Source: Gemmatimonadota bacterium
GTDB lineage: Bacteria > Latescibacterota > UBA2968 > UBA8231
DNA length: 64,000 nucleotides
Direction: 5' to 3'
NCBI GenBank assembly: GCA_018660835.1
Contig: JABJJN010000074.1
Location: forward strand, 124,001-188,000
The notes under the pieces are model-generated. The model ran no database searches. It had not been told where the DNA came from and saw only the letters and a program-made list of their open reading frames with translations. The position numbers and the translations under genes were made by a program. Within the stretch, counting starts at the first letter, position 1. Each line of letters starts with the position of its first letter. Of this stretch, positions 9,992 through 27,164 are shown piece after piece.

Positions 9992-12334
9992 TTACGTGTT
10001 CTCGGCTGCCTGGCGCAACTGGCGGCTGCGCTGGTAGAACTCATCAAGTTTCAATTCCCGCAGGAACACGAGTCCCCGCGTCCCACGTATCAGTGGACTT
10101 GGATGATTGTGGAACCATTCTCTTCCAAGACAAGTTTTTACTCGCTGGTATTGGTCGACCTGTACTCGCTGCGCGAGCTCTGAAAAGGGGCCATCGTGTT
10201 CCGGACTCGGAAAAGAAGCCTCTGCTTGAGATATGAAGCTATTGATAAATGCGTTATGCATAATGGCAAACATGTTCAGTGATACTGGAACGAAGATATT
10301 CGCCTCACTTGGATGGAACCGGTACCACACATTTCGGTAGCCCCAGATCTTGATATCGGATCGGCCCGAGCTCTGCTCATATTGCCGCAGACCCTCGGCG
10401 ATAGACTGCAGCACCTTGTAGTGGGTATCGGGACCGCTGGCTTCCGGATCAAGGGCGACACTGACCACATCAGGTTCGGTCTGTTTGAGTAGACCGAGCA
10501 CGGGCAGCGCATCCTCTTCCAGCGTCGGTTCGGGTGTAAAGATATCCCCCGTGTAGAAGCCGAGACGCAGGTGCAGAACCCGAGAACAATCCCAGCCAAA
10601 GTACCCCCAGATGCACTCTGCCTCCCATTCGCGACACATGCCCTTGAGACGCTGGACATCTTCTGTGTCTTTCTGGCCCGGATACTGACCGGCAAAATAC
10701 GCTGTCAGCGAATCGATCCTTGCATTGAGCGCCTCCTGCTCACGATCACCGTAAATGGCAATGAGATTGCGCAGGAATCGGCGTGCCGCGCCTTCCGCCT
10801 TCATGTCTTCGTCTGCAGCGGCGACACCATCAAGATATTGCCACACATCACGATTGCGACCCTGTAGAAACTCTGGCTCGAAATAGCCGTCCAGCAACCA
10901 GCGTTCGAAGTCGGCCGTCGGCAGAAACTGCTGCAATCGTTGCAGGTGCCCGCAGATAAAATCGTTGGTCACTGCCGTGAAACCACCTGTCAGGCAGGCG
11001 AAGGTGTGCGTGTTGTTTGCGTCTCGCACATGCCGCACGATGTAGGGCAAATAGCCCAGCATCAGATCATCGTGATGTGGCTCTGTATGTAGAAACTTCG
11101 TGTTCGACAGCGTCTGCCCACCACGTTCAATCTTGGCGATCAGACCATCCCGAACCTGGGTTGCCAGTTGGGGCAGGTCGGCGGTGTGTTTTTTCAACAT
11201 AGCCGATGCTTCCGCGTCAGCAGCAGCATCAGCGGCAGTCAGATCTGTCAGCCGCTTGCGACACTTCACCGACAGATCTACAAGGACGCGCTCGACCAAC
11301 TCGTCATCGACTTGTGTAACCTGTTCAACGGCGACACGACGTCGCTCACCCAAGTGTTTCGCGGCACCCGTTGTGATGTAGAAACGAGCGTTGGGAAGTT
11401 GCTGCAGGGCCGTAGCCGGAAACTCGATATCGGGCGAATGTTGTATTGCTTCTGCGACGATGTGGGCCTTCGCCTCACCCGCTGCAACAATCAACGCACA
11501 GGCGTCCGGCTTTGCCGTGATCGTACCCAATCCAATGGTGACGACGAGTCTGCGGCGCGAGATCTCCATCCCACCCAGATCACCGGCTGCCGCTGCCTGA
11601 GTTTCGTAGTTCACCTGGGTCAATCTCGTCGTCGAACGATGATCCGAGCCGCGGACATTGAAGCCAATATGTCCATCCGGACCAATGCCGCCGAGAAAAA
11701 AGCCGATGCCTCCAAGCTGCCTGATCCGCTCCTCGTATTCCTGGCACCATTGATCGATACGTCCCAGAGTCTGCTGCTGCTCCCTCTCCAAATGCCCGCT
11801 GGCAGCACGGTAGCGGAGACTCAGATCGACTTCACCTGACTCTCCCCAGACACTTCGCAGTGTTTGCCCTGGGCGCAGTCCCATCTCATGACAATTCATC
11901 AGCAGCGCGCGCTCAGCATCGAGCCCGAAGCCCTTGAGGTAGAATCGGTTTACATAGGCATAAAAGCTGTTGGATTGGACCGGTTCGATGGGATAGAACT
12001 CGTCGATCTGCACGAAGTGCAGGCCATCGAGTCGTGGCTCGCGAGTCGGGTCGATGCCCGCTGCTGCAAGCTCTGACTGCGTCTCTGTCTGGCCCCATGT
12101 CTGCAACAGATGCTGAACCCACTTGATGAAGTGTTCGGGTGTCTTGCCTGTGGGCAAGCTGATCACACCCTCCGGGTGATCCTGCACCCACTCCACAAAA
12201 CGCATGGCCGCGAGGCGTCCGAGGGCAGGGAAGTTGTCGACCATGACGGTCGGAATCTTCTCTGCTGGTTCGTAGAGGGCATCGAAGGCAGAGGCAGTTA
12301 CCGCTACCTGCTCGACGGGGGTCAGTCGGTCCAT
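9992..12334 (-). CDS. NagB-like sugar-phosphate isomerase fused to PIG-L (LmbE-like) deacetylase domain
   Basis: 780 residues. The N-terminal ~350 resemble glucosamine-6-phosphate deaminase: PTGKTPEHF (~61-69), IDEFYP (Asp111) and GGIGPDGHIGFN (Asp220, His222). The C-terminal part begins at TEPHHDDLMLGY (418-428), the zinc-binding motif of PIG-L/LmbE deacetylases. This two-domain arrangement is known from Bacteroidetes NagB proteins. The usual NEP after HIAF is NVR here, replacing the conserved catalytic-loop Glu by Val227, so deaminase activity is uncertain. A normal NagB is encoded at 14205-15017, which fits divergence of this copy. Likely role is amino-sugar phosphate processing in the cytoplasm. 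Confidence 0.82.
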   Translation of the reverse strand: MDRLTPVEQVAVTASAFDALYEPAEKIPTVMVDNFPALGRLAAMRFVEWVQDHPEGVISLPTGKTPEHFIKWVQHLLQTWGQTETQSELAAAGIDPTREPRLDGLHFVQIDEFYPIEPVQSNSFYAYVNRFYLKGFGLDAERALLMNCHEMGLRPGQTLRSVWGESGEVDLSLRYRAASGHLEREQQQTLGRIDQWCQEYEERIRQLGGIGFFLGGIGPDGHIGFNVRGSDHRSTTRLTQVNYETQAAAAGDLGGMEISRRRLVVTIGLGTITAKPDACALIVAAGEAKAHIVAEAIQHSPDIEFPATALQQLPNARFYITTGAAKHLGERRRVAVEQVTQVDDELVERVLVDLSVKCRKRLTDLTAADAAADAEASAMLKKHTADLPQLATQVRDGLIAKIERGGQTLSNTKFLHTEPHHDDLMLGYLPYIVRHVRDANNTHTFACLTGGFTAVTNDFICGHLQRLQQFLPTADFERWLLDGYFEPEFLQGRNRDVWQYLDGVAAADEDMKAEGAARRFLRNLIAIYGDREQEALNARIDSLTAYFAGQYPGQKDTEDVQRLKGMCREWEAECIWGYFGWDCSRVLHLRLGFYTGDIFTPEPTLEEDALPVLGLLKQTEPDVVSVALDPEASGPDTHYKVLQSIAEGLRQYEQSSGRSDIKIWGYRNVWYRFHPSEANIFVPVSLNMFAIMHNAFINSFISQAEASFPSPEHDGPFSELAQRVQVDQYQRVKTCLGREWFHNHPSPLIRGTRGLVFLRELKLDEFYQRSRQLRQAAENT

Positions 12335-14204: not shown

Positions 14205-15017
14205 TTAGGACAACTTCGACGCCGCATCGCGGTCGACGATGAAGGTGCAGTCGGCATGATCTTGCAGAAGGCTGGCGGGACAGTCCTCACTGAATGGCCC
14301 ATCTACCGCAGCGGCGATGGCATCGGCCTTCTTGGAACCAGTCGCCAGCAAGACCAGACGCCGCGCCTCGCGGATGGTGCCGATTCCCGCAGAAAGGGCG
14401 CAGCGCGGGACCTCGGATGCATCCGAGAAGAAACGACCGTCGCTATTGCTTTCGATGGTCTCCTGTGTCAGGCTGACCAAACGGGTGCGACTATCGACGC
14501 CTGAGCCGGGCTCGTTAAAGGCGATGTGGCCATTGCCACCGATACCCAGAAGCCACATATCAATACCGCCTGCAGCAAGAATCCTCTGTTCAAAGCCTTC
14601 ACACTCCAGCTGTGGAAAGCGAGCCTTACCATTGAGAACGTGCGTATTGAAAGGCAGGATATCGACATGTTTGAACAGGTTTTCGTGCATGAAGTAGCGA
14701 TAACTCTGGTCGTGATCGCCGCCCAGACCCCAATACTCGTCTAGATTGAAGGAGCTGACGCCAGCCAGGCTCAGCCCATCTTCTCTATGTCGTCGGGCCA
14801 TCTCAGCATACGTCGCTTCAGGCGTTGATCCCGTCGCCAGCCCGATGACACTCTCGGGGGTGGCGCGGATGAGTTCGTCGAACATGGCGGCCGCTTCAAT
14901 GGCCACCTGTGCTGCATCGTCACAGATCTTGACTTGTATGTTGCCTGCCATCACTCGTATCGCGGGAATGCTCGCCTCGGCGAGTCGTGTAACGTGCTGA
15001 ATCAGAGGGTGATTCAT
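14205..15017 (-). CDS. nagB: Glucosamine-6-phosphate deaminase
   Basis: Up to 270 residues. Landmarks: IGLATGSTPE (~58-67), NLDEYWGL (Asp93, general base), and GIGGNGHIAFNEPGS (~158-172) with the catalytic His164 and Glu169 intact. SRTRLVSLTQET follows as in true NagB. It converts glucosamine-6-phosphate to fructose-6-phosphate plus ammonia. The start is uncertain: the first ATG has no good ribosome site, and an internal ATG at 14951 would give a 248-residue protein beginning MAGNIQVKI. It is divergent from the DUF4954 gene and 27 bases upstream of the ACP gene on the same strand. Confidence 0.9.
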   Translation of the reverse strand: MNHPLIQHVTRLAEASIPAIRVMAGNIQVKICDDAAQVAIEAAAMFDELIRATPESVIGLATGSTPEATYAEMARRHREDGLSLAGVSSFNLDEYWGLGGDHDQSYRYFMHENLFKHVDILPFNTHVLNGKARFPQLECEGFEQRILAAGGIDMWLLGIGGNGHIAFNEPGSGVDSRTRLVSLTQETIESNSDGRFFSDASEVPRCALSAGIGTIREARRLVLLATGSKKADAIAAAVDGPFSEDCPASLLQDHADCTFIVDRDAASKLS

Positions 15018-15119: not shown

Positions 15120-15183
15120 TTCCTTCTTCGTGTCATTTAACCGCAACGTTTTCAGCAAGATAGACGAATTGGGATCGCTCTCT

Positions 15184-17133
15184 ATGACCACCTCCTCACC
15201 TATTGGTGCCGCCGCAATCGAGTCGCTCACGCTGCAGGGCTGCTCAGCCGGCGATTGGGCCAGTGTTCTTGTCACCTCTGATTTTGACCCTCAACGCGTC
15301 CACAATACGCGCTTCGACGGCACTGTCCATCTTGGGGCACTGACGGGGAAGGTGAGAGTCGCTGGCGGGATCGATGTGGACTGCGGCATCCGTGACGTGC
15401 ACCTGATCGACTGCGAAATCGCTGAGAATGTCCTCATCTCCCGCGTCGGAGGCCACATTGCCCGCACCCGGATCGGTGCCGGTGCGGTGATCACCGATGT
15501 CGGCACGATCGCCACACATGTGGGAGCTACATTCGGCAATGGCGTCGAGGCGGAAACGATCAACGAAGGTGGTGGTCGGGAAATTGAGCTGTTTGCCGAA
15601 ATATCGAGTCAGTTCGCCTATCTGATGGCCATGCATCGGCACCGAGCCGACGTGACCGAGCGCCTGCAGGCGATGGTGGCAGACTACACCGCTACGGCCA
15701 AAGCCGACATGGGTCGCATCGGTGCTGGTGCACGGATCTCCCACGTGGGTGAGATCATCGACGTCGAGATCGGGCCTGCAGCGCAGGTGGTGGGGGCAGC
15801 TCGACTACACAATGGCACCATCCTGTCGGAAGCGGATGCGGCGACCCTCGTGGGCGCCGGCGTCATGGCGGAAGATTTCATTATCGCCGAGGGCGCCGAA
15901 GTCGTTGATGGTGTCGTCCTGCACAGTTGCTTCGTTGGCCAGGGCACCAAGATGGGAAAGCAGTTTTCTGCCGAGAATTCCTTGTTCTTCGCCAATTGTG
16001 AAGGTTTCCACGGCGAGGCATGCTCCATCTTCGCCGGACCCTACACCGTGACGCACCACAAAAGCACGTTGTTGATTGCCGGCATCTATTCCTTCTACAA
16101 CGCCGGATCCGGTACCAATCAAAGCAATCACATGTACAAGTTGGGCCCAGTGCACCAGGGCGTTATTCAGCGTGGTACGAAGAATGGCTCCTTCTCCTAT
16201 ATGCGCTGGCCCACCGTCGTGGGGCCCTTCTGCGTCATCATTGGCAAGCATCTGAACAATTTCGACATCGGTGATCTGCCCTTTTCCTACGTCACCGAAG
16301 AGGAAGGCGATTCACTGCTGACGCCGGCGATGAACATGTTCACAGTTGGCACCATGCGTGACGGCGAAAAATGGCCGACTCGCGACCGGCGCTCGGCAAC
16401 CACCAAGCGCGACCAGATCTGCTTTGACGTCTACAGTCCCTACACGGTTGGCAAGATGGTTCGCGCCGAGGCGGCCCTTACCGCACTCTACGACGAAACG
16501 GACCGCGCCGTAGAACAGATTCGCTACAAAGGCGTACTTGTGAAGCGGTTGATGCTGCGCAAGGGCGCCCGCAACTACCGTGACGGTGTCGATGTATATC
16601 TGCAGGGCAAGATCCTCGCCCGAGCCGCAGCGGCTCGTGCGACTGCAGACGAAGCGAAAACGCGTACATCACTGGCCGCGGGTGATGGTGTAGGCAATGG
16701 CGACTGGAGCGATGTGGGAGGACAGTTGATCCCCCTGGCACGACTCAGGCAGATCGAAGACGACATCGCCGTGGGCAAGCTGGCAAATCCAGCACAGGTG
16801 GATGCCGCTTTTGCTGATGCCGCCGCCGCCTACGCCGAGGATGAATGGGCGTGGGTCTGTCGTGTATTTGAACAACGTACCGGGCAACCACCCGAGGCGC
16901 TGAGCCTGGCGGATCTCGACAAGATCCAGGCGAGCTGTACGAAGATGTCGAACTCAACCATCAAGAAGATCCTCGCCGACGCGGAGAAGGAATTCGATCC
17001 CATTGCCCGCTACGGCTATGGTGCCGAAGGCGGTGATGCCGCTCGCGATGCCGATTTTGCCTCCGTTCGTGGCACCTTCGCCGACAATTCCTTTGTACAA
17101 CAGATGCAAGACCGACTGCAAGATGACGGATGA
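15184..17133 (+). CDS. DUF4954 family protein (left-handed beta-helix, hexapeptide repeats)
   Basis: About 649 residues from ATG 15184; a GTG at 15130 would add 18 residues but lies almost on the predicted transcription start. Residues ~20-380 are hexapeptide-like repeats (e.g. GAVITDVGTIATHVGATFG, GARISHVGEIIDVEIG, AEVVDGVVLHSCFVG) typical of LpxA-type acyltransferases and sugar-1-phosphate nucleotidylyltransferase tails. The overall length matches DUF4954, seen mainly in Bacteroidetes and relatives, often annotated as sugar-nucleotide-related. The C-terminal third is helical. It overlaps the response regulator gene by 11 bases and heads the signalling block. Exact reaction unknown. Confidence 0.82.
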   Translation: MTTSSPIGAAAIESLTLQGCSAGDWASVLVTSDFDPQRVHNTRFDGTVHLGALTGKVRVAGGIDVDCGIRDVHLIDCEIAENVLISRVGGHIARTRIGAGAVITDVGTIATHVGATFGNGVEAETINEGGGREIELFAEISSQFAYLMAMHRHRADVTERLQAMVADYTATAKADMGRIGAGARISHVGEIIDVEIGPAAQVVGAARLHNGTILSEADAATLVGAGVMAEDFIIAEGAEVVDGVVLHSCFVGQGTKMGKQFSAENSLFFANCEGFHGEACSIFAGPYTVTHHKSTLLIAGIYSFYNAGSGTNQSNHMYKLGPVHQGVIQRGTKNGSFSYMRWPTVVGPFCVIIGKHLNNFDIGDLPFSYVTEEEGDSLLTPAMNMFTVGTMRDGEKWPTRDRRSATTKRDQICFDVYSPYTVGKMVRAEAALTALYDETDRAVEQIRYKGVLVKRLMLRKGARNYRDGVDVYLQGKILARAAAARATADEAKTRTSLAAGDGVGNGDWSDVGGQLIPLARLRQIEDDIAVGKLANPAQVDAAFADAAAAYAEDEWAWVCRVFEQRTGQPPEALSLADLDKIQASCTKMSNSTIKKILADAEKEFDPIARYGYGAEGGDAARDADFASVRGTFADNSFVQQMQDRLQDDG

Positions 17134-17755
17134 CGCAGGCCCTCCCCCTGCAGAGGTAATCGATGTCCTCGTCGTGGAGGACAGCCGCGTTCAGTCTGAA
17201 GCCTTGCGGCTGGGACTTGAACGACGGGGTTATCGTGTGCGCGTCGCTGCTGATGGCGCGGAAGGCCTTGTCGCCGTGCGCGAACAGGCACCGGATCTCA
17301 TCATTACAGATATCGATATGCCGAACATGGATGGCTATCAATTGTGCGAAGAGATCAAGAACGACTCTCAGCTGCGCTCAATTCCCGTCATCCTGCTGAC
17401 ATCCCTTGGCGAACCGGAAGACATCTTCCGCGGACTCGAGGTTCGAGCGGACAACTATCTGACCAAACCATTTGACGAGGAAATTCTCGATTCGCGCATA
17501 GAACATGTCCTCGCCAATCGACAGTTGCGCAGCCGGCATCGCGCCAAGCGTGGTGTCGAAGTGATCTATTCTCGGCGACGCCGAAGAATTGATTCAGACC
17601 GTGAACAGATCCTCGATCTGTTAATGTCATCTCTCGACAATGCAATGCATCGATATGCACACCTTGAGTCACGGGTGGAGGAACTGGAAGCCGAACGTCG
17701 GCAATTGATCGAAGAGGTGAATCGACTACGTACACCGCCTGACGAAATTTCCTGA
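17123..17755 (+). CDS. Single-domain-type response regulator with C-terminal coiled coil
   Basis: 210 residues from ATG 17123. Receiver domain 12-135: acidic pair E19-D20 (VVEDS), phospho-acceptor Asp63 (ITDIDMPNMDG), Thr93 and Lys115 (TKPFDEE). The last 80 residues contain a charged helix (ESRVEELEAERRQLIEEV) predicted to be a coiled coil, with no DNA-binding or enzymatic domain. The gene starts inside the end of the DUF4954 gene (11-base overlap), implying translational coupling, and is 11 bases from the REC-GDH gene. It likely relays phosphoryl groups or acts through protein contacts. Confidence 0.9.
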   Translation: MTDDAGPPPAEVIDVLVVEDSRVQSEALRLGLERRGYRVRVAADGAEGLVAVREQAPDLIITDIDMPNMDGYQLCEEIKNDSQLRSIPVILLTSLGEPEDIFRGLEVRADNYLTKPFDEEILDSRIEHVLANRQLRSRHRAKRGVEVIYSRRRRRIDSDREQILDLLMSSLDNAMHRYAHLESRVEELEAERRQLIEEVNRLRTPPDEIS

Positions 17756-17766
17756 GGACGACGACC

Positions 17767-19419
17767 ATGTCCGGCAAACCCTTGCGTGCCCTGCTCATTG
17801 AAGACAATCCCATTCATGCTCGCCTGATCGAAAAGCTGCTGGAGGAAGTCGGCAGCTACGACGTGGCCCTGCAGACAGGTGGAACCCTGGCGACGGGTCT
17901 GGAAATGCTGGGTCGGGGCGAAGACTTTGATGTGGTGCTCCTCGACCTGGTATTGCCTGACAGTCAGGAAATGGACACCTACTTCCGTGTGCGGGCTGCC
18001 GTGCCGGAACTGCCTGTCCTGATTCTGTCGGGCATCGATGACGTAACCCTTGCCTCCCGCGCCGTCGAAGCAGGCGCCCAGGACTACCTGGTAAAGACCA
18101 GCCTCGATGCGCAGACCCTCGGACGATCGATTCGATACGCACGCGAGATTACCCACGCACAGCGATCAGAGTGGAATTCGCCCAGTTTTCGCCTCGCGCA
18201 ACAGCAATTCCTCAAGGCCGCGGAGTTGATGAGTCTTGACGACAACCTGCGCCAGCGACTGCTATTCCCGCAACGCACACAGATCGTCTCCTTTCCCTTT
18301 CGGCGTGACAACGAGCAAGAGGTGGAGACCGTCTTCGGCTATCGTGTTCAGCACGTTTTGTCCATGGGCCCCACCAAGGGCGGCATCCGCTACCATCCAG
18401 ATGTGAACCTCGGCGAGACAGGCGCACTGGCCATGTGGATGACGTGGAAATGCGCTCTCATGCAATTGCCATTCGGCGGCGCCAAAGGGGGCGTGCGTTT
18501 TGATCCCACCGACTTCTCCCGCAGTGAGTTGCAACGCCTGACCAGACGCTACACCTCCGAGATCATTGGCATGATCGGTCCCGACAAGGACATCCCCGCA
18601 CCTGATATGGGCACGGACGAGCAGACAATGGCGTGGATCATGGATACCTACAGCCAGCAAGTCGGTTATGCCGTGCCCGCCGTCGTCACCGGTAAACCTG
18701 TTGTGTTGGGAGGCTCTGAAGGACGCAGTGAAGCAACGGGCCGGGGCCTCGTGTATGTCGTGGAGGAAGCAGCACGGCGTCTTGAAATCGATCTGCCTCA
18801 GACCACCGCCGTCGTTCAGGGGTTTGGCAATGTCGGAAGAAATGCGGCACGCTTTTTCTCCGAACTTGGCGTCACGGTTCTCGGCGTCAGCGATGTGACG
18901 GGAGGCATCTTCAACCCTCGTGGTCTCCATCTCGACGATGTGATCGACTACACGCGTCGGCACCGATTTCTTGAGGGCTATCCCGAGGCGGAGGCTGTCA
19001 CCAATGAGGAATTGCTGGAACTACAGTGTGACATACTTGCGCCCTGCGCTCTGCAGGGACAGATCCATGGCGGCAATGCGAATCAGATTCAATGTCGGAT
19101 CCTCGCCGAAGGTGCCAATGGCCCCACGACATTGGATGCGGATGAGATCCTGCAGGATCGAGGCATCTACGTCCTGCCGGACATCCTTGCCAATGCCGGC
19201 GGTGTGACCGTGTCGTATTTCGAGTGGGTCCAGGATACCCAGAACTACATGTGGACCCTTGAGCAAATCAATGAACGACTGCGACGCATTCTTGCCGACG
19301 CGTATGAACGTCTGGCAGGTCGTGCCGAGAATGAGGGGTACGATCTGCGCACAGCAGCCCTTGTCGAGGGCATCAGCCGGGTGCGCGAAGCCAAACTCGC
19401 ACGCGGATTGTTTCCGTGA
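17767..19419 (+). CDS. Receiver domain fused to complete glutamate dehydrogenase (REC-GDH)
   Basis: 550 residues in one uninterrupted frame. Residues 5-128 are a receiver domain: E12-D13, phospho-acceptor Asp60 (VVLLDLVLPD), Ser88 and Lys110. Residues ~137-550 are a full-length Glu/Leu/Phe/Val dehydrogenase: GPTKGGIRYHP (Lys204), MTWKCAL (Lys228), the catalytic GGAKGG (Lys240), PAPDMGT (Asp280), the Rossmann GFGNVG (352-357) and ILANAGGVTVSYFEW. The expected reaction is 2-oxoglutarate plus ammonia plus NAD(P)H to glutamate, or the reverse. Both domains keep their active residues. It lies between a response regulator and a hybrid kinase, suggesting control by phosphorylation. I know of no standard family with this architecture. 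Confidence 0.92.
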   Translation: MSGKPLRALLIEDNPIHARLIEKLLEEVGSYDVALQTGGTLATGLEMLGRGEDFDVVLLDLVLPDSQEMDTYFRVRAAVPELPVLILSGIDDVTLASRAVEAGAQDYLVKTSLDAQTLGRSIRYAREITHAQRSEWNSPSFRLAQQQFLKAAELMSLDDNLRQRLLFPQRTQIVSFPFRRDNEQEVETVFGYRVQHVLSMGPTKGGIRYHPDVNLGETGALAMWMTWKCALMQLPFGGAKGGVRFDPTDFSRSELQRLTRRYTSEIIGMIGPDKDIPAPDMGTDEQTMAWIMDTYSQQVGYAVPAVVTGKPVVLGGSEGRSEATGRGLVYVVEEAARRLEIDLPQTTAVVQGFGNVGRNAARFFSELGVTVLGVSDVTGGIFNPRGLHLDDVIDYTRRHRFLEGYPEAEAVTNEELLELQCDILAPCALQGQIHGGNANQIQCRILAEGANGPTTLDADEILQDRGIYVLPDILANAGGVTVSYFEWVQDTQNYMWTLEQINERLRRILADAYERLAGRAENEGYDLRTAALVEGISRVREAKLARGLFP

Positions 19420-19477: not shown

Positions 19478-22426
19478 ATGCCTCCAACACTGCGCACCGA
19501 ATACTACCATCCTGGTTACGTGAGACTTCTGGGCTGGGTCTCGCTGACCGTCGGACTTGGCGTGGTTGCCGCTGCGTGTGTCGTCCTGATTGGCTGGCAG
19601 TTCGAGTTGCCTCTGCTCAAACGCGTCCTGCAGCCGGGACGCGTCGCCGTCAATCCTGCCACGGCCGTGTGTTTCCTGCTGTGCGGGCTGGCCCTGCTGC
19701 TGGAACGACCCGGGAGCCGTCGAGGACGGCGTGTGGGCGTAGTACTTGCCGGTCTGGTGGCATTGCTGGCGTTGCTGAAGCTGTGGTCCTACGACAGCGG
19801 TGCGAGCTGGTCTATTGATCAATTGATGTATGCCCAGCGGCTGGCTGGTAGTCATATGTCACCGCATGTGGCGGCGACATTCCTGATCGCCGCAGCGGCA
19901 TTGATGAGTCTCGACCTGTCGATCCGCGGCCGACTGTGGTTCAGTCAACTGTGTGCTATTCTGCTCGGCGTGAGTGCGATCCTATCGGTCAGCGACTATC
20001 TGTACAATATCCTGCTACTGTCCGGTTGGTCGACGTATTTCCCTCTCGCCCTAGACGCCCATCTTGAATTCGGTCTGCTCTGCATGGGTCTGTTGGCATC
20101 TCGCCCTCTACGGGAGCCAGCGGCGACCCTCGTGTCGACGACGGCGGGTGGGATCATGGCCCGTCGGGTGTTGCCCGCGGCCTTCCTGATACCGCTCAGC
20201 TTTGACCTGCTGCGGCTGCAACTGGTCGGTCAATTCGGTATCGAATACGACCTGTCCCTGTTCGCTTTGATCTCGATCGTTGCGCTGAATCTGCTGATCT
20301 GGTGGAATGCCTCATCACTGGTGGCCGTTGATCGTGAGCGCATCGACTCAGACCGACAGCTCATACAGAAGAATGACTTGCTCGAAGCAGGCGCACGGGA
20401 ATTAGAGCGCTCCCAGGGGCAGCTGAGTCAGGCGAAGGACACAGCGGAGAGAGCGAATCGCGCCAAGAGTGAGTTTCTCGCCAACATGAGCCATGAAATT
20501 CGAACACCAATGAATGGCGTCATTGGCATGACGGAACTTCTGCTCAATACACGACTCAGTGACCAGCAGCGGGAGTATCTGCGCATTGTCGATCAGAGTG
20601 CAGACTCCCTGTTGCGACTGCTGAATGATATCCTCGATTTCTCCAAGATCGAGGCGGGGCGGCTCGAGTTGGAGGAGATCCCCTTCGGTCTGCGCGACAC
20701 TCTTGGCGATACGCTGCAGACCCTGGCGATGCGCGCCTCCGAAAAGGACCTGGAACTGGCATTCCACATCGCACCTGATATCCCTGATGCCCTCATCGGC
20801 GATCCGGTCAGATTTCGCCAGATCATCGTCAATCTCGTGGGCAATGCGCTCAAGTTCACCGAAGTGGGGGAAGTCGTCGTCGACGCTCATGTAGAGGAGC
20901 TGGTCGTTGGCGAATATGTGCGACTTCGATTCGCCGTGTCTGACACGGGCATCGGCATTCCCTCTGAGAAGCAGGCACTCATCTTCGGTGCCTTTGGTCA
21001 GGCAGACACATCGACGACGCGTAGATATGGAGGCACGGGGCTGGGGCTGGCCATATCCCGACAACTGGCACGGATGATGGGTGGTCGCATGTGGTTGGAA
21101 AGTGAGGGGTCCGGACACGGCAGCACCTTCTTTTTCACGACACAATTCTCTCTGCAACTGGGTGTCCCCCTGCAACCGCGCCGAGGTCCTTTATCGCTGT
21201 CCGGGTTGCGGGTCCTCATCGTCGATGACAATCAGACGAATCTGAGAATCCTTGAAGAGATGGTCGGCAGCTGGGGCATGATGCCCCAAACGATCAACAG
21301 CAGCCCCGGTGCCGTCGACGAATTGCTACGTGCCTTTGATTCCCCTTCACCCTACGCGCTGGTTCTACTGGATGGCTGGATGCCGGACATGGATGGCTTC
21401 GATCTGGCAGAGAGGATTCGGGAAGAGCCGAAATTGGCACAGCTGCCACTACTGATCCTCACATCGGCTGGGCGTCCGGAAGACGCGGAACGCAACAAGC
21501 GACTGCGCATTGAACGGATTCTGACCAAACCTGTGAAACAGTCCGACCTGCTCGACGCCATGGCGGAAACACTTGATGCCGCCGAGGCACAGACCGAACC
21601 AGCTGAGGTGATCTACACACCACAGCAGACCTACCATATCCTGCTCGCCGAGGACGGCTTGGTCAATCAGCGAGTCGCCATGGAATTGCTGCAGCAGCGC
21701 GGCCATCAGGTCACCGTCGCCGCCGACGGACATGAGGCCCTGGCCACCCTCGCAGCGAACCACTTCGACCTGATTCTGATGGACGTTTCAATGCCCGAAA
21801 TGGATGGCTACGAGGCGACGGCCGCCATTCGTGCGCATGAAGCAGAGAGTGATGCCGCACCAATGCCGATCATCGCGATGACGGCCCATGTGATGAAGGG
21901 TGATCGCGAGCGCTGTCTGGAGGCGGGGATGAACGAATACATACCCAAACCGATTCGCGCCCGACGACTCTACGAGATGATCGACACTGTCATGGCCGGA
22001 TGGCCAGCGACGAAGATCAACACTACGTCGCAGACGGCTGATCCTGCGCCAACATCGGCAGATACGATTGACGCGATGCTCGCCGCCGATGCTACCGCCT
22101 TTGTCTGGGAAGAGGCCCTCAGTGGTGTCGGTGGAAATGAGGAGACTCTGCGGGAACTGCTCAGTCTGTTCATGGAGGAGGCGACGAAGCTGACGACACA
22201 GATGGACACTGCACTGGCAGCAGGAAATGCCGATGATTTGCGCCGGGCGGCACACACGCTCAAGGGGAGTGCTCGACTTTTTTCTGCCCATCCCGTCGGT
22301 GACGCAGCGCAAGAGTTGGAGTCATGTGCCCGCGACGGCCTCGGCGAGGATGCGACCTCTCTTCTGGCTCAGGTGACGGCACGCCTCAACACGCTTACAG
22401 AACAGATCCAGCAGCGCCTCGGCTGA
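19478..22426 (+). CDS. Membrane hybrid sensor kinase (7-8 TM, HisKA, HATPase, REC, REC, HPt)
   Basis: 982 residues. The first ~280 hold seven or eight hydrophobic helices (e.g. 18-40, 60-76, 86-103, 130-146, 156-172, 230-245, 258-278), an integral membrane sensor. A coiled linker leads to HisKA with phospho-His339 ([12 protein letters not shown]), then the ATPase domain ([17 protein letters not shown]). REC1 (~570-690, [11 protein letters not shown]) and REC2 (~708-835, [11 protein letters not shown]) follow, then an HPt with AAHTLKGSA (His926). This is the BarA/ArcB-like phosphorelay layout, able to deliver phosphoryl groups to separate receivers. The candidates next door are the response regulator at 17123 and REC-GDH. 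It starts 58 bases after the REC-GDH gene. Confidence 0.95.
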
Positions 22427-23094: not shown

Positions 23095-24159
23095 CTACGG
23101 TAGCTGGTAGCCGCGGTTGACCACCTGTATCCTGGCTAGAACAGCGCCTCCTTCAGTGGTGTTGTCCCCATAGGTGATGTAGAGAGTCCTGGCGTCCGCA
23201 CCGCGACCAAAGGCAACATTGGTCGGCAGAGCAGGTGTGGGGATATAGGCGCGCTCCTCGCCTTTCGGTGAATAGACGTAGATACCCATGCGCGTCTGGT
23301 CGCGAACGGCGACGTAGAGATTGCCCGCTTCATCGCAGACCAGTCCATCCGGGCCATCCTGAGGCGCATAGTCGACGAGGGTTTCACGGAATGTCGCCGC
23401 ACCCTCTGCAGATAAATCGTACGCCGAGAGGGTCATCCGCCCCTTTGCCAACCGCTGCGCCGCCTCGGGTGACAAGCGGTCAAAGGCGTGTGAGCCATTG
23501 TCGTTGCTCACCACATACAAGCTGCGCTGATCGGGAGATACTGAGATGCCGTTGGGCTTGCCCGCGTCGGCAATGATCCGTGTCAGACGTCCATCTGGAT
23601 CGATGCGATAGACGCCGAAGACTTCCTGCCCCATGGGCTCGTGACCCAGATACTTTGGATCTGAGAAGTAGATCCTGCCGCTCTCGTCCAGACTCAGATC
23701 GTTTGGTGCATTGAGGCGCTGGCCATTGTAGTGCGTCGCAAGGATGACGGTCTTTCCCGTTGTCAGATCGGTACGCGTCACGCGACGCCCACCATGATCA
23801 GCGCCTTCGCAAGCGACGAGGCGCCCTTGGGCGTCAAATTTGAGCCCATTCGACATACCACTGGGTGATCGATAGACCGTCGTCTCGCCACGGGCCGGAT
23901 CGTAACGCAGGATGTGCCCCGCTTCCGGTGGCCATGAGGCACCGCCTGTAAAGGTGATGTCAGAGAAGTAGATACTACCGTCCAGGGCGGCTGCAGGACC
24001 TTCGGTGAAGAATGCACCCGCATGAACGACCTCCATCTGCGCATTGGCGTCGATGATCTGTGGGTCGCCTTGTACAACGGCAGATGGCACAGCGGCCGAC
24101 AAGAGGGCAGGAAAGGTGCTGACCATAACTGCAACGAAAATGAAACGGAACCTGCTCAT
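23095..24159 (-). CDS. Secreted SMP-30/gluconolactonase-like beta-propeller
   Basis: 354 residues with a signal peptide (SRFRFIFVAVMVSTFPALLSAA, positively charged then hydrophobic). The body matches SMP-30/gluconolactonase/LRE: metal ligand Glu in FFTEGPAA, then ISVSPDQRSLYVV, APNDLSLDESGRIYFSDP and DGPDGLVCDEAGNLYVAV, the repeated propeller strands with the Asn/Asp calcium ligands. Likely hydrolyses a sugar lactone in the periplasm. AGGAGG 6 bases upstream is a strong ribosome site. Its ATG overlaps the TGA of the propeller kinase (ATGA), so the sensor and the secreted lactonase are translated together, suggesting they serve the same sugar-derived signal. Confidence 0.87.
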   Translation of the reverse strand: MSRFRFIFVAVMVSTFPALLSAAVPSAVVQGDPQIIDANAQMEVVHAGAFFTEGPAAALDGSIYFSDITFTGGASWPPEAGHILRYDPARGETTVYRSPSGMSNGLKFDAQGRLVACEGADHGGRRVTRTDLTTGKTVILATHYNGQRLNAPNDLSLDESGRIYFSDPKYLGHEPMGQEVFGVYRIDPDGRLTRIIADAGKPNGISVSPDQRSLYVVSNDNGSHAFDRLSPEAAQRLAKGRMTLSAYDLSAEGAATFRETLVDYAPQDGPDGLVCDEAGNLYVAVRDQTRMGIYVYSPKGEERAYIPTPALPTNVAFGRGADARTLYITYGDNTTEGGAVLARIQVVNRGYQLP

Positions 24160-27100
24160 GTCTTTCCTCCTGTTCGCGTTGAAGACCGGCGCAAAGGGGG
24201 CGGTCCACGACGTTTGGGTTCGCTTGTTGGCAAGCGCACGGTCACCGTCGTGCCATGCCCTGGCTCGCTCTCGATCTCGAGTGTTCCTGCGTGTTTGCGC
24301 ACAATATTGTAACTGGTTGGTAATCCGAGACCCATCGCCACACGGTGCTCTTTGCGGGCGAAGGTGGGATCGAAAATATGCGCCAAACGCTCAGGCTCAA
24401 TACCTCTGCCATCATCAGCAAAGATGATTTCCACATGCGGTTCATCCAGCCTCGTGCGTACTCGTATCGTGCCAGTACTCTCATTCTCCAGTGCCTGCCT
24501 GGCATTCATCAGCAAGTTCATGTACACCTGATTGAGTTCCTGCGGATAACAATAGATGAGAGGCAATTCAGAAAACGTCCGCTCGACAGTCACCCCCGGA
24601 GTCAGTTGTGGTTCCATCAGCGTGACCGCTGAGTCAAGACCGTCATGGATGTCGACCCGCTCGTATTCTGCGCGGTCCAGATGCGCGAAGGTCTTGAGAC
24701 TATCGACGATACGCGCGAGACGTTCGATGGCAGTGCCCGTGGCGCCATTGCTATTCGACAGGGCTTTGAGCACGCGCTCAAGCTGTTTGCCCTGGTCAAT
24801 GCCTTCGTCCTCGGTGGTGATCAGCTGACGGAGTCGATCGATGCCACGCGACAATACATCTGCCGAGCTTCGCACGGTGCCAAGGGGTGTATTGAGCTCA
24901 TGTGCAATGCCGGCTACAAGACTACCAAGGGCCGCCATCTTCTCCTGCACAATCAACTGACCCTGCGTTTCGCGCAGATCGCCCAGTGCCTGTTCAAGGA
25001 CACGATTCTGCTCCTGCAATGTTTCTGTACGAGCCTGAACGTGACGCTCAAGTTCGTCAATGCGCTCATCCCGTGTGTCAGGTAAAACGGTCAACGCCAG
25101 CGTCGCAGGCATCGAATAATTCAGGTCGCGATCTATGACGACGACCTGAAACTGATAGTCACCCGGCGACAACCCCTCATATTCGACACGACGCTCCAGA
25201 GTTGTGTGCCAGCTCTCGTCGACACCCTCGAGTCGGTAGCGATAGACCATGCGACCTCGGCGTGTCTTGAAGCTCACGCTGGCATACTCGAAGGTCGTTA
25301 GGGACGACGTTGTCAATTCTACAGGCGCAGCAAGATCCTCATAGCGCTTGTCAGCGATGACGGCGCGAATGTAGACAGGTGGTGCAGATGCGGGAGGGGG
25401 TTGAAAGACAGTGAGCCCGGCACTGGTGCCAAACCACATGCGACCTTCATCATCCTGGTCGATGGCCATCGCGATACTGCTGGCGAGACCGTCCTCGGCG
25501 GTGAGGGTCTGACAGATCTGTCCATCGAATCGACTCACACCACCCCATGTCGACATCCACAGATAACCAAGAAGATCTTCGAACAGACGCAGAACCTGAT
25601 CGTTGCCCAAACCATCTGCCTGTGTCCAGGTGTGCATCTCGCCTTCACGCCACTGCCAGACGCCACCACTGGTAGCGACCCACACACTACCTTCGCGATC
25701 GACGAGAATATCGTGACAATGTGCGTGTGGCAGGACGTCAGTGAAGTTTGTAAAGCTCGTACCATCGAAGCGACTGACGCCGCCCTCCGTGGCGATCCAG
25801 AGCCGGTCCTTCGGATCTTCGGCGAAGGCGTTGACGTCGTCGTCTACCAGACCCTCAGCGGTCGTCCAACAGTCAAAGTGACCATTCTCACGACGACGAC
25901 TGATGCCGCCTTCAGTAGCCAACCAAAGATCGCCCTGGCGATCCTCGTAGAGCTTGTAGACGCGGTTGTGAACCAAGCCATCTGCTGTCGTCCACGTCTC
26001 GAATTTTTGCTGCGACACGTCCCAACGAGCCAACCCAGCCTCGGTGCCAATCCAGATATGGCCGTCTTGTGTTTCGCACACACTGAACACCCGGCGATCC
26101 GGCAGACCATCCTTCTCGTCATATACGTGCAGATACTCGCCATCGAATCGTGTCAAGCCATCGATGGACGCGAACCAACGATCACCATTGCGATCCTGCA
26201 GGACCGTGCGCATGTCGTCGCCAGCCAGTCCATCGCGACGATCGAGGCTTGTGAAAGATTGGCTGTACTGACTGACGCCGCCGAAGCTGCCAAACCAGAT
26301 GTCACCAGCCTGATCGCAAGCGAGAGAAGTCAACTGAGTATTTACCAGACCATCGGCGACGGTAAAGTTGATCACACCGGTGCCACTGAGAAGACTGGCG
26401 CCGCCACGTGCCGCGGCCCACACATTGCCATCGTTGTCGACACACAGCGCCCGGATCACATCCTGGACAAGTCCATCCTGTTCACGCAGCCGCTGCACAC
26501 TTCCATCAGGCGACAGGACGAAGAGTCCTTTGGTGGTGCCAAGAAACACGCGATCCTCATCGTCGACGCAGGCTGTCTCCACATGACCCAACTGTTCACC
26601 AGCCAGCGACGTGAAGACTTCAAAGCGTTCGCCATCATATCTGGCGGCGCCACCGATGCCGGCGAACCAGAGATTCCCCTGCCCGTCTTCTGTGATGTGT
26701 TGAATGCTGGCAACACTCAGCCCCTGGGCCGCGTCGAAGCTCTCGAAGCGTTTGCCATCGAAGGCGCCAACACCGCTCTCCGTGGCGACCCAAATGCGCC
26801 CTTGGCGATCCGCATGCACATAGTTGCTCTGCCAGTGCGGTAGACCATCGTCAACGCCAAAGGACTGGAAGCGCTCACCGTCCCACATGGACACACCGTC
26901 CGTCGCCGCATACCAGATATGACCGCTTGCGTCTTGAGTGATACCCCAGACCGTATCACCGGATAGCCCATCTGCTACACCAAACGTGCGCAGGGCATCG
27001 CCATCATAGCGCACCGCTCCGCATCCCCATGTGCCCATCCAAAGGAAACCGTGACTGTCTTGGAACAGACTGATCACCGGACCAGGCAGACCATTGGTGC

Positions 27101-27164
27101 CGTCGAGGTTGCGCCACGTTCCGCGGGCGCGGATACGATGATGGTCACACAGCGTTTTGCGCAT
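24156..27164 (-). CDS. Soluble two-component regulator-propeller histidine kinase
   Basis: 1002 residues. The first ~590 hold 14 propeller repeats of about 41 residues, each with a pattern such as D..G.(I/L)W(I/F)AT..GVS.(F/W)DG and ending in ADGL, giving two seven-bladed propellers. A Y_Y_Y domain follows (RYRLEGVDESW..., LSPGDYQFQV), then a coiled coil (RIDELERHVQARTETLQEQ), HisKA with His755 (GIAHELN) and an ATPase domain (NLLMNARQAL, FADDGRGIEP, GLGLPTSYNI). Normally this family has a signal peptide and a membrane helix between Y_Y_Y and HisKA. Neither is visible here, and an in-frame TAG 18 bases upstream excludes a longer start. No receiver or AraC domain is attached. Confidence 0.9.
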   Translation of the reverse strand: MRKTLCDHHRIRARGTWRNLDGTNGLPGPVISLFQDSHGFLWMGTWGCGAVRYDGDALRTFGVADGLSGDTVWGITQDASGHIWYAATDGVSMWDGERFQSFGVDDGLPHWQSNYVHADRQGRIWVATESGVGAFDGKRFESFDAAQGLSVASIQHITEDGQGNLWFAGIGGAARYDGERFEVFTSLAGEQLGHVETACVDDEDRVFLGTTKGLFVLSPDGSVQRLREQDGLVQDVIRALCVDNDGNVWAAARGGASLLSGTGVINFTVADGLVNTQLTSLACDQAGDIWFGSFGGVSQYSQSFTSLDRRDGLAGDDMRTVLQDRNGDRWFASIDGLTRFDGEYLHVYDEKDGLPDRRVFSVCETQDGHIWIGTEAGLARWDVSQQKFETWTTADGLVHNRVYKLYEDRQGDLWLATEGGISRRRENGHFDCWTTAEGLVDDDVNAFAEDPKDRLWIATEGGVSRFDGTSFTNFTDVLPHAHCHDILVDREGSVWVATSGGVWQWREGEMHTWTQADGLGNDQVLRLFEDLLGYLWMSTWGGVSRFDGQICQTLTAEDGLASSIAMAIDQDDEGRMWFGTSAGLTVFQPPPASAPPVYIRAVIADKRYEDLAAPVELTTSSLTTFEYASVSFKTRRGRMVYRYRLEGVDESWHTTLERRVEYEGLSPGDYQFQVVVIDRDLNYSMPATLALTVLPDTRDERIDELERHVQARTETLQEQNRVLEQALGDLRETQGQLIVQEKMAALGSLVAGIAHELNTPLGTVRSSADVLSRGIDRLRQLITTEDEGIDQGKQLERVLKALSNSNGATGTAIERLARIVDSLKTFAHLDRAEYERVDIHDGLDSAVTLMEPQLTPGVTVERTFSELPLIYCYPQELNQVYMNLLMNARQALENESTGTIRVRTRLDEPHVEIIFADDGRGIEPERLAHIFDPTFARKEHRVAMGLGLPTSYNIVRKHAGTLEIESEPGHGTTVTVRLPTSEPKRRGPPPLRRSSTRTGGKT

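Follow-up and report, generated by a model that had tools for sequence, protein, structure and literature searches.

Organization of the REC-GDH Locus

The window, i.e., the whole stretch of 64,000 nucleotides that was analyzed, contains on the plus strand (17767–19419) a single open frame encoding a 550-amino-acid protein, in which a receiver domain (REC) is fused to a glutamate dehydrogenase (GDH); the two parts are kept as one gene in relatives. The frame starts with ATG at 17767, ends with TGA at 19417–19419, and has no internal stop codon. The receiver domain occupies residues 9–112 (17791–18102, plus strand; Pfam PF00072, Response_reg, E-value 8.9e-15, above the curated cut-off), and according to the Pfam match and the alignment its response-regulator site is complete, comprising E12, D13, the phospho-acceptor D60, S88, and K110. 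The N-terminal domain of GDH corresponds to residues 168–296 (18268–18654, plus strand; ELFV_dehydrog_N, PF02812, E-value 1e-52, 177.7 bits, above the curated cut-off), and the C-terminal nucleotide-binding domain, with the GFGNVG motif at 352–357, to residues 315–547 (18709–19407, plus strand; ELFV_dehydrog, PF00208, E-value 1.2e-79, 267.9 bits, above the curated cut-off). The substrate and catalytic residues of ELFV-type GDHs, namely, K204, K228, K240, and D280 according to the alignment, are all present in the N-terminal domain; their individual roles are assumed here to be those in studied GDHs. The protein scores below the equivalog thresholds of the NCBIfam models GluDhGdhB_Halo (489.8 bits vs. 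620) and GdhA_Arch (474 bits vs. 750). The original prediction, that one frame joins an intact receiver (D60, K110) to a full-length GDH (K204, K228, K240, D280), is thus confirmed, with every residue present as named.

The possibility that two neighboring genes were fused by an assembly error or a frameshift has a practically negligible probability and is refuted by full-length relatives in many assemblies: the full-length architecture is shared by separate assemblies from several phyla, complete plasmid records among them, and hence the junction, for which a frameshift had originally been considered, is neither a frameshift nor a chimera.

In the AlphaFold2 model (80 alignment rows, mean pLDDT 91, pTM 0.78), which replaced an earlier one built from 11 rows (pLDDT 70, pTM 0.63), helix α5 of the receiver continues as a linker helix, residues 115–134 (18109–18168, plus strand), and the GDH helix 139–154 begins four residues after its end. 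The stretch from K110 to E135 has a length of 25 residues in 61 out of 61 genes with a visible REC; one relative (L139), whose N-terminal extension contains no receiver by Pfam, was left out of this count. Such a fixed-length helical joint is what a mechanical coupler would look like. Residues 141–550 align end to end with PDB:1b26 (469 bits, the best among the solved structures listed). The chain of 1b26/1b3b, which we take to be a GDH of the Thermotoga maritima type, resembles this part of the protein but has no receiver domain. No solved structure was found for the whole fusion, the best stretch never starting before residue 135 in the best 60 out of 166 structure matches.

On the same strand, 58 bases downstream of the REC-GDH gene, lies a gene encoding a hybrid histidine kinase of 982 amino acids (19478–22426), the probable phosphodonor. 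Its domain composition according to Pfam, HisKA-HATPase-REC-REC-HPt, bears out the hybrid kinase with an HPt domain that had been proposed next to the fusion. The HPt domain comprises residues 893–973 (22154–22396, plus strand; PF01627) with the phospho-acceptor H926, and the N-terminal part of the kinase, judged by eye, resembles membrane helices. The window kinase shares the HisKA-HATPase-REC-HPt relay logic with unorthodox hybrid kinases of the BarA/ArcB type, but it has two receivers, and its presumed target is an enzyme, whereas the target of BarA/ArcB-type kinases is a DNA-binding regulator.

Immediately upstream, a gene at 17123–17755 (plus strand; start codon selected by us) encodes a receiver domain (PF00072) with a tail that by eye resembles a coiled coil. 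It was considered as a part of the module and rejected, as the closest relatives, L118 (with 1.5 kb of upstream sequence only) and L119, show no counterpart next to REC-GDH. Other genes of the window include one for a DUF4954 and DUF6819 protein (15130–17133, plus strand), a separate Glucosamine_iso gene (14205–15017), a 780-residue frame on the minus strand (9992–12334) with no Pfam match at 1e-5, whose N-terminal part is similar by eye to glucosamine-6-phosphate isomerase, and, also on the minus strand (24156–27164), a histidine kinase with two-component-regulator propeller and Y_Y_Y domains, in which Pfam detects no receiver.

Distribution and Phylogeny of the Fusion

Full-length relatives of REC-GDH, mostly 60–75% identical to the window protein, are found in several phyla and on megaplasmids of Sinorhizobium/Ensifer. 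Among the best 80 genome-contig loci, at least 10 are full-length fusions with 62–68% identity (L009–L017 and L020), and the names of their records cover Planctomycetaceae, Gemmatimonadota/Gemmatimonadetes, Latescibacterota, Aestuariicella, Rhodopirellula, Myxococcales, Halomonas, Gammaproteobacteria, and Lujinxingia. In the window's own phylum, the fusion is found in nine out of 64 genomes (the window's genome included). The further counts were made at an E-value of 1e-150 and give 10 out of 201 sampled genomes of a Halomonas family, two of them with identity near 50%. In the Rhodopirellula family, 23 out of 241 genomes have a match (18 of full length, one over residues 53–550, and four to the GDH part only), and in the order of Aestuariicella, two out of 390 sampled genomes, one of which is shared with the Halomonas sample. 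The highest proportion is seen in the phylum of locus L012, with full-length fusions in 14 out of 16 genomes and one more interrupted by a contig end.

Nine megaplasmid records carry the fusion, from Sinorhizobium fredii (seven, including pNGR234b of strain NGR234), S. chiapasense, and Ensifer adhaerens; the product, wherever it is named, is called “Glu/Leu/Phe/Val dehydrogenase dimerization domain-containing protein.” On one Ensifer plasmid (L099, 1–7275), genes annotated as methylaspartate mutase, methylaspartate ammonia-lyase, CoA-transferase, CoA ester lyase, and fumarate hydratase lie upstream of REC-GDH, i.e., a glutamate-breakdown route is encoded beside it.

Two further candidates were rejected. 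The 22 matches in phage collections are all below 60% identity, and the best five of the 22 start at least at residue 109 and miss the receiver site, so that a phage origin was dismissed. A Nitrospira frame of 550 amino acids (L029), fusion-like by its length, has no receiver by Pfam.

For the comparative analysis we used 68 fetched loci of the clade (69 with the window), of which seven have no REC and one, L185, ends before it. L185, whose receiver part falls past the contig end, was excluded from the receiver counts and the kinase alignment, and L124 was dropped as a duplicate, being the same gene as L010. In a careful tree of 70 GDH domains, the fusion clade, including its REC-less members, is separated from stand-alone GDHs with support of 100/97. 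The REC label changes three times on this tree, which we read from the branching as one gain and two losses. The tree leaves out the long rows L125, L002, L051, L052, L057, and L082, as well as L088, which contains stops; L173–L185 are absent from both this tree and a fuller quick tree. In the latter, the rhizobial plasmid genes cluster with those of Aestuariicella and Halomonas, and several phyla are intermixed, which we take as a sign of horizontal movement. Since the labels are clustered on the tree, the counts of intact receivers and GDHs given below do not represent independent events.

Conservation and Loss of the Receiver

The receiver site, E/D/D/(S or T)/K, is intact in 58 out of 61 REC-bearing genes, the window included, and in all 37 genes (36 loci and the window) for which both the REC and a neighboring hybrid kinase can be seen. 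The three eroded receivers (L135, L136, L137), all from the Rhodopirellula family and all with no adjacent kinase, keep D60 and K110 and have lost residues of the acid pair or the Ser/Thr residue. Seven relatives have no REC (L018, L019, L021, and L138–L141); their GDH parts are 67–71% identical to that of the window and keep the four GDH residues, and no kinase is seen beside any of them. Some of the genes with no kinase beside them thus have an eroded (three) or missing (seven) REC, with the GDH residues kept.

These observations bear on a reading that we consider quite improbable, namely, that the receiver does not control GDH and acts as a phosphate sink or as a passive dimerization arm. 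Its absence from the seven nested relatives and its erosion in the three Pirellulaceae genes, with GDH residues kept in both cases, are compatible with such a role, as are the retention of REC in Pirellulaceae fusions that have no close kinase and its lower conservation relative to GDH (43–60% vs. 66–79% identity to the window, with eroded and catalytically dead rows left aside). A passive arm is, however, difficult to reconcile with the invariant length of the linker, with the intact receiver site wherever a kinase adjoins, and with the low dN/dS of REC, 0.05–0.21 in seven pairs (Nei–Gojobori).

The Adjacent Hybrid Kinase

An adjacent kinase was counted if its core was more than 55% identical, HPt was present, and the gene lay on the same fetched stretch. 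By this definition, the hybrid kinase adjoins REC-GDH in 37 out of 68 fetched loci, and in the window: 35 of the 37 lie downstream on the same strand, one lies upstream (L013), and one is on the opposite strand (L017), with gaps between the two genes mostly below 100 bases; the L101 kinase is annotated as two separate genes. The relay residues H339, D632, D769, and H926 are kept in 37 out of 37 aligned kinases (36 loci and the window). The HPt kinase noted beside the fusion is a frequent companion of it. The relay part is constant, whereas the sensor ends of the eight kinases scanned vary, containing PAS, GAF, or YfiR/HmsC-like domains or no Pfam domain.

The REC distances correlate with those of the kinase core (r = 0.94 for 34 loci and the window, with L133 and L134 left out; 0 out of 999 permutations as high), and the corresponding values are 0.90 for GDH vs. 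kinase core and 0.79 for REC vs. HPt. As far as can be told from such distances, the REC–kinase correlation shows common inheritance rather than contact, being also expected from mere co-inheritance.

Twenty loci with an intact REC have no adjacent kinase; two of them (L015, L182) are near contig ends. The other 18, of which 16 belong to the Rhodopirellula family, have 5 kb or more of sequence downstream. In a further locus that ends near the gene, L175, a cut kinase is visible. A search of 25 genomes with the relay part gave matches of at least 65% only in G000, G005, and G009; the best match was 53% in Planctomycetota genomes and 42% in G003, and seven out of 25 genomes had no match at 1e-100. 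Thus, with no kinase closer than these, the donor in the Planctomycetota genomes scanned and in G003 would have to be either another kinase or none. In the window's genome, the next kinases of the same type are only 47–48% identical.

Catalytic Residues of the Dehydrogenase Part

The four catalytic residues of GDH are intact in 58 out of 61 REC-bearing genes. The exceptions retain both Pfam GDH domains and an intact receiver despite the catalytic loss, whereas the window protein keeps its catalytic residues. L125 (5099–6748) has the substitutions K204L and K240M, and no adjacent kinase was seen on its contig stretch. L133 (6866–8494) and L134 (6168–7796) have K204L, K228Q, and D280G, a stretch from D280 to G352 that is nine residues shorter, and an intact adjacent kinase. 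The latter two are placed among Halomonadaceae on a long stem branch (1.95 in the fuller quick tree) and represent a genus of which two species were sampled, and L125 stands apart; beyond K204, the lost residues differ. The exact places of all three are unsure, as their rows were flagged for length or odd composition. Between L133 and L134, dN/dS is 0.135 for the dead GDH domain and 0.052 for REC, compared to 0.04–0.13 and 0.06–0.21, respectively, in six intact pairs (Nei–Gojobori), so that the dead domain is still under purifying selection. The genomes with a dead GDH (G003, G084, and G108) contain a separate PF00208 dehydrogenase. Since L125, L133, and L134 have lost GDH catalytic residues yet kept REC, catalysis is not the sole selected function; judged by its residues, REC-GDH in these two lineages has turned into something else.

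The opposite situation is seen where REC-GDH is the only PF00208 gene found, i.e., in the L012 phylum (13 out of 16 genomes, and one more in which a contig end cuts the copy), as well as in G038, G040, G041, G043, and G068; genomes may be incomplete. These counts cover the PF00208 family, GDHs of other families, e.g., the large NAD-GDH, lying outside them. In the L012 phylum, being the only member found, the fusion is probably a working GDH, and the same is probably true of most lineages. The originally proposed catalytic output is complicated by the two lineages where catalytic residues are lost and the receiver is intact.

The dead-enzyme branch, the unexpected part of our results, raises the alternative that the GDH part is mainly a ligand-sensing or scaffolding signal domain, in which REC phosphorylation or a protein contact would respond to bound glutamate, 2-oxoglutarate, ammonium, or NAD(P)(H), with catalysis secondary and dispensable. 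We consider this unlikely. It would explain an intact REC on a dead GDH in two lineages, one of them with an intact kinase, the maintenance of the dead domain in L133/L134 (dN/dS 0.135), and the presence of another dehydrogenase in all three genomes; besides, a review reports a direct interaction of GDH with the transcription factor GltC (PMC6978683). It fits poorly with all four catalytic residues being kept in 58 out of 61 REC-bearing genes and in the seven REC-less relatives as well, and with the fusion being the sole PF00208 gene in the L012 phylum (13 out of 16). Moreover, the genus of L133/L134 comprises two sampled species only, and L125 comes from a MAG with no cognate-level kinase (best match 42%), and its GDH may be decaying.

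Discussion

Direct phosphorelay control of GDH by a two-gene system appears to be the best reading of the sequence data, with a probability of roughly 0.63. It is supported by the intact receiver, GDH, and relay residues, the frequent pairing with the kinase, the fixed linker, the common clade, and the status of the fusion as the sole PF00208 gene in the L012 phylum; the Pirellulaceae fusions with no close kinase and the erosion or loss of REC in some relatives speak against it. The route of phosphotransfer, as well as the allosteric effect on GDH and the direction in which it acts, are inferred as follows. The hybrid kinase would sense a signal through its variable N-terminal region and autophosphorylate at H339; the phosphoryl group would then pass via the kinase receivers (D632, D769) to H926 of HPt and on to D60 of REC-GDH. 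Phosphorylation of D60 would alter the α4-β5-α5 face of the receiver, and the fixed-length α5-helix would relay this change into the first GDH helix, altering GDH activity. As for the sign of the effect, activation is our guess, at about 60:40.

Response regulators with enzymatic output domains, such as CheB, PleD, and similar proteins, are well known. Like them, REC-GDH carries an N-terminal receiver with the full phosphorylation site on an enzyme, and the kinase is often encoded nearby; the difference is in the output, which here is a dehydrogenase of central metabolism rather than a methylesterase or a second-messenger enzyme. Receivers on standard metabolic enzymes have been described as putting enzyme activity under environmental control (PMC5847659). 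The architecture itself is not wholly unrecorded: in Table 1 of the 2009 P2CS paper, on enzymes of two-component proteins, glutamate dehydrogenase (EC 1.4.1.3) is entered as “Probable” (PMC2716373), and hence the combination of REC and GDH had probably been seen by then. That record is a single table line, in a section that is silent on the gene and organism concerned, on a kinase partner, and on conservation and mechanism. The original prediction took phospho-control of GDH for a new mechanism unless the architecture proved to be a widespread and well-described family; widespread it is, while for the description the open-access literature yielded this one line (PMC2716373) and no experimental study, phosphorylation data, or kinetic data on the fusion.

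Thermus thermophilus offers an earlier example of a GDH subunit retained for regulation in a catalytically dead form, comparable to L125 and L133/L134: its hetero-hexameric GDH contains the catalytically inactive regulatory subunit GdhA and is regulated by leucine (PMC9570180). GdhA is a leucine-regulated partner subunit, for which the passages concerned in that paper mention no receiver, whereas L125 and L133/L134 carry one (PMC9570180).

A broader interpretation, which we put forward tentatively and regard as possible rather than probable, is that the phosphorelay module is mobile and its GDH assembly both an enzyme and a phospho-gated signaling device. The kinase and REC-GDH together would tie outside signals to the glutamate/2-oxoglutarate status, and some lineages would retain the GDH fold for signaling only, as a pure pseudo-enzyme sensor or output.

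GDH, which stands at the meeting point of carbon and nitrogen metabolism, is an enzyme whose regulation by small ligands is well known. If direct phosphorelay control of GDH is true, a His-Asp phosphorelay would subject this central enzyme to direct sensory control that bypasses transcription. The module is amenable to study in rhizobia, namely, in Sinorhizobium fredii NGR234 with its plasmid pNGR234b, and in Halomonas, and the natural dead-enzyme variants would offer a route to separating catalysis from signaling.
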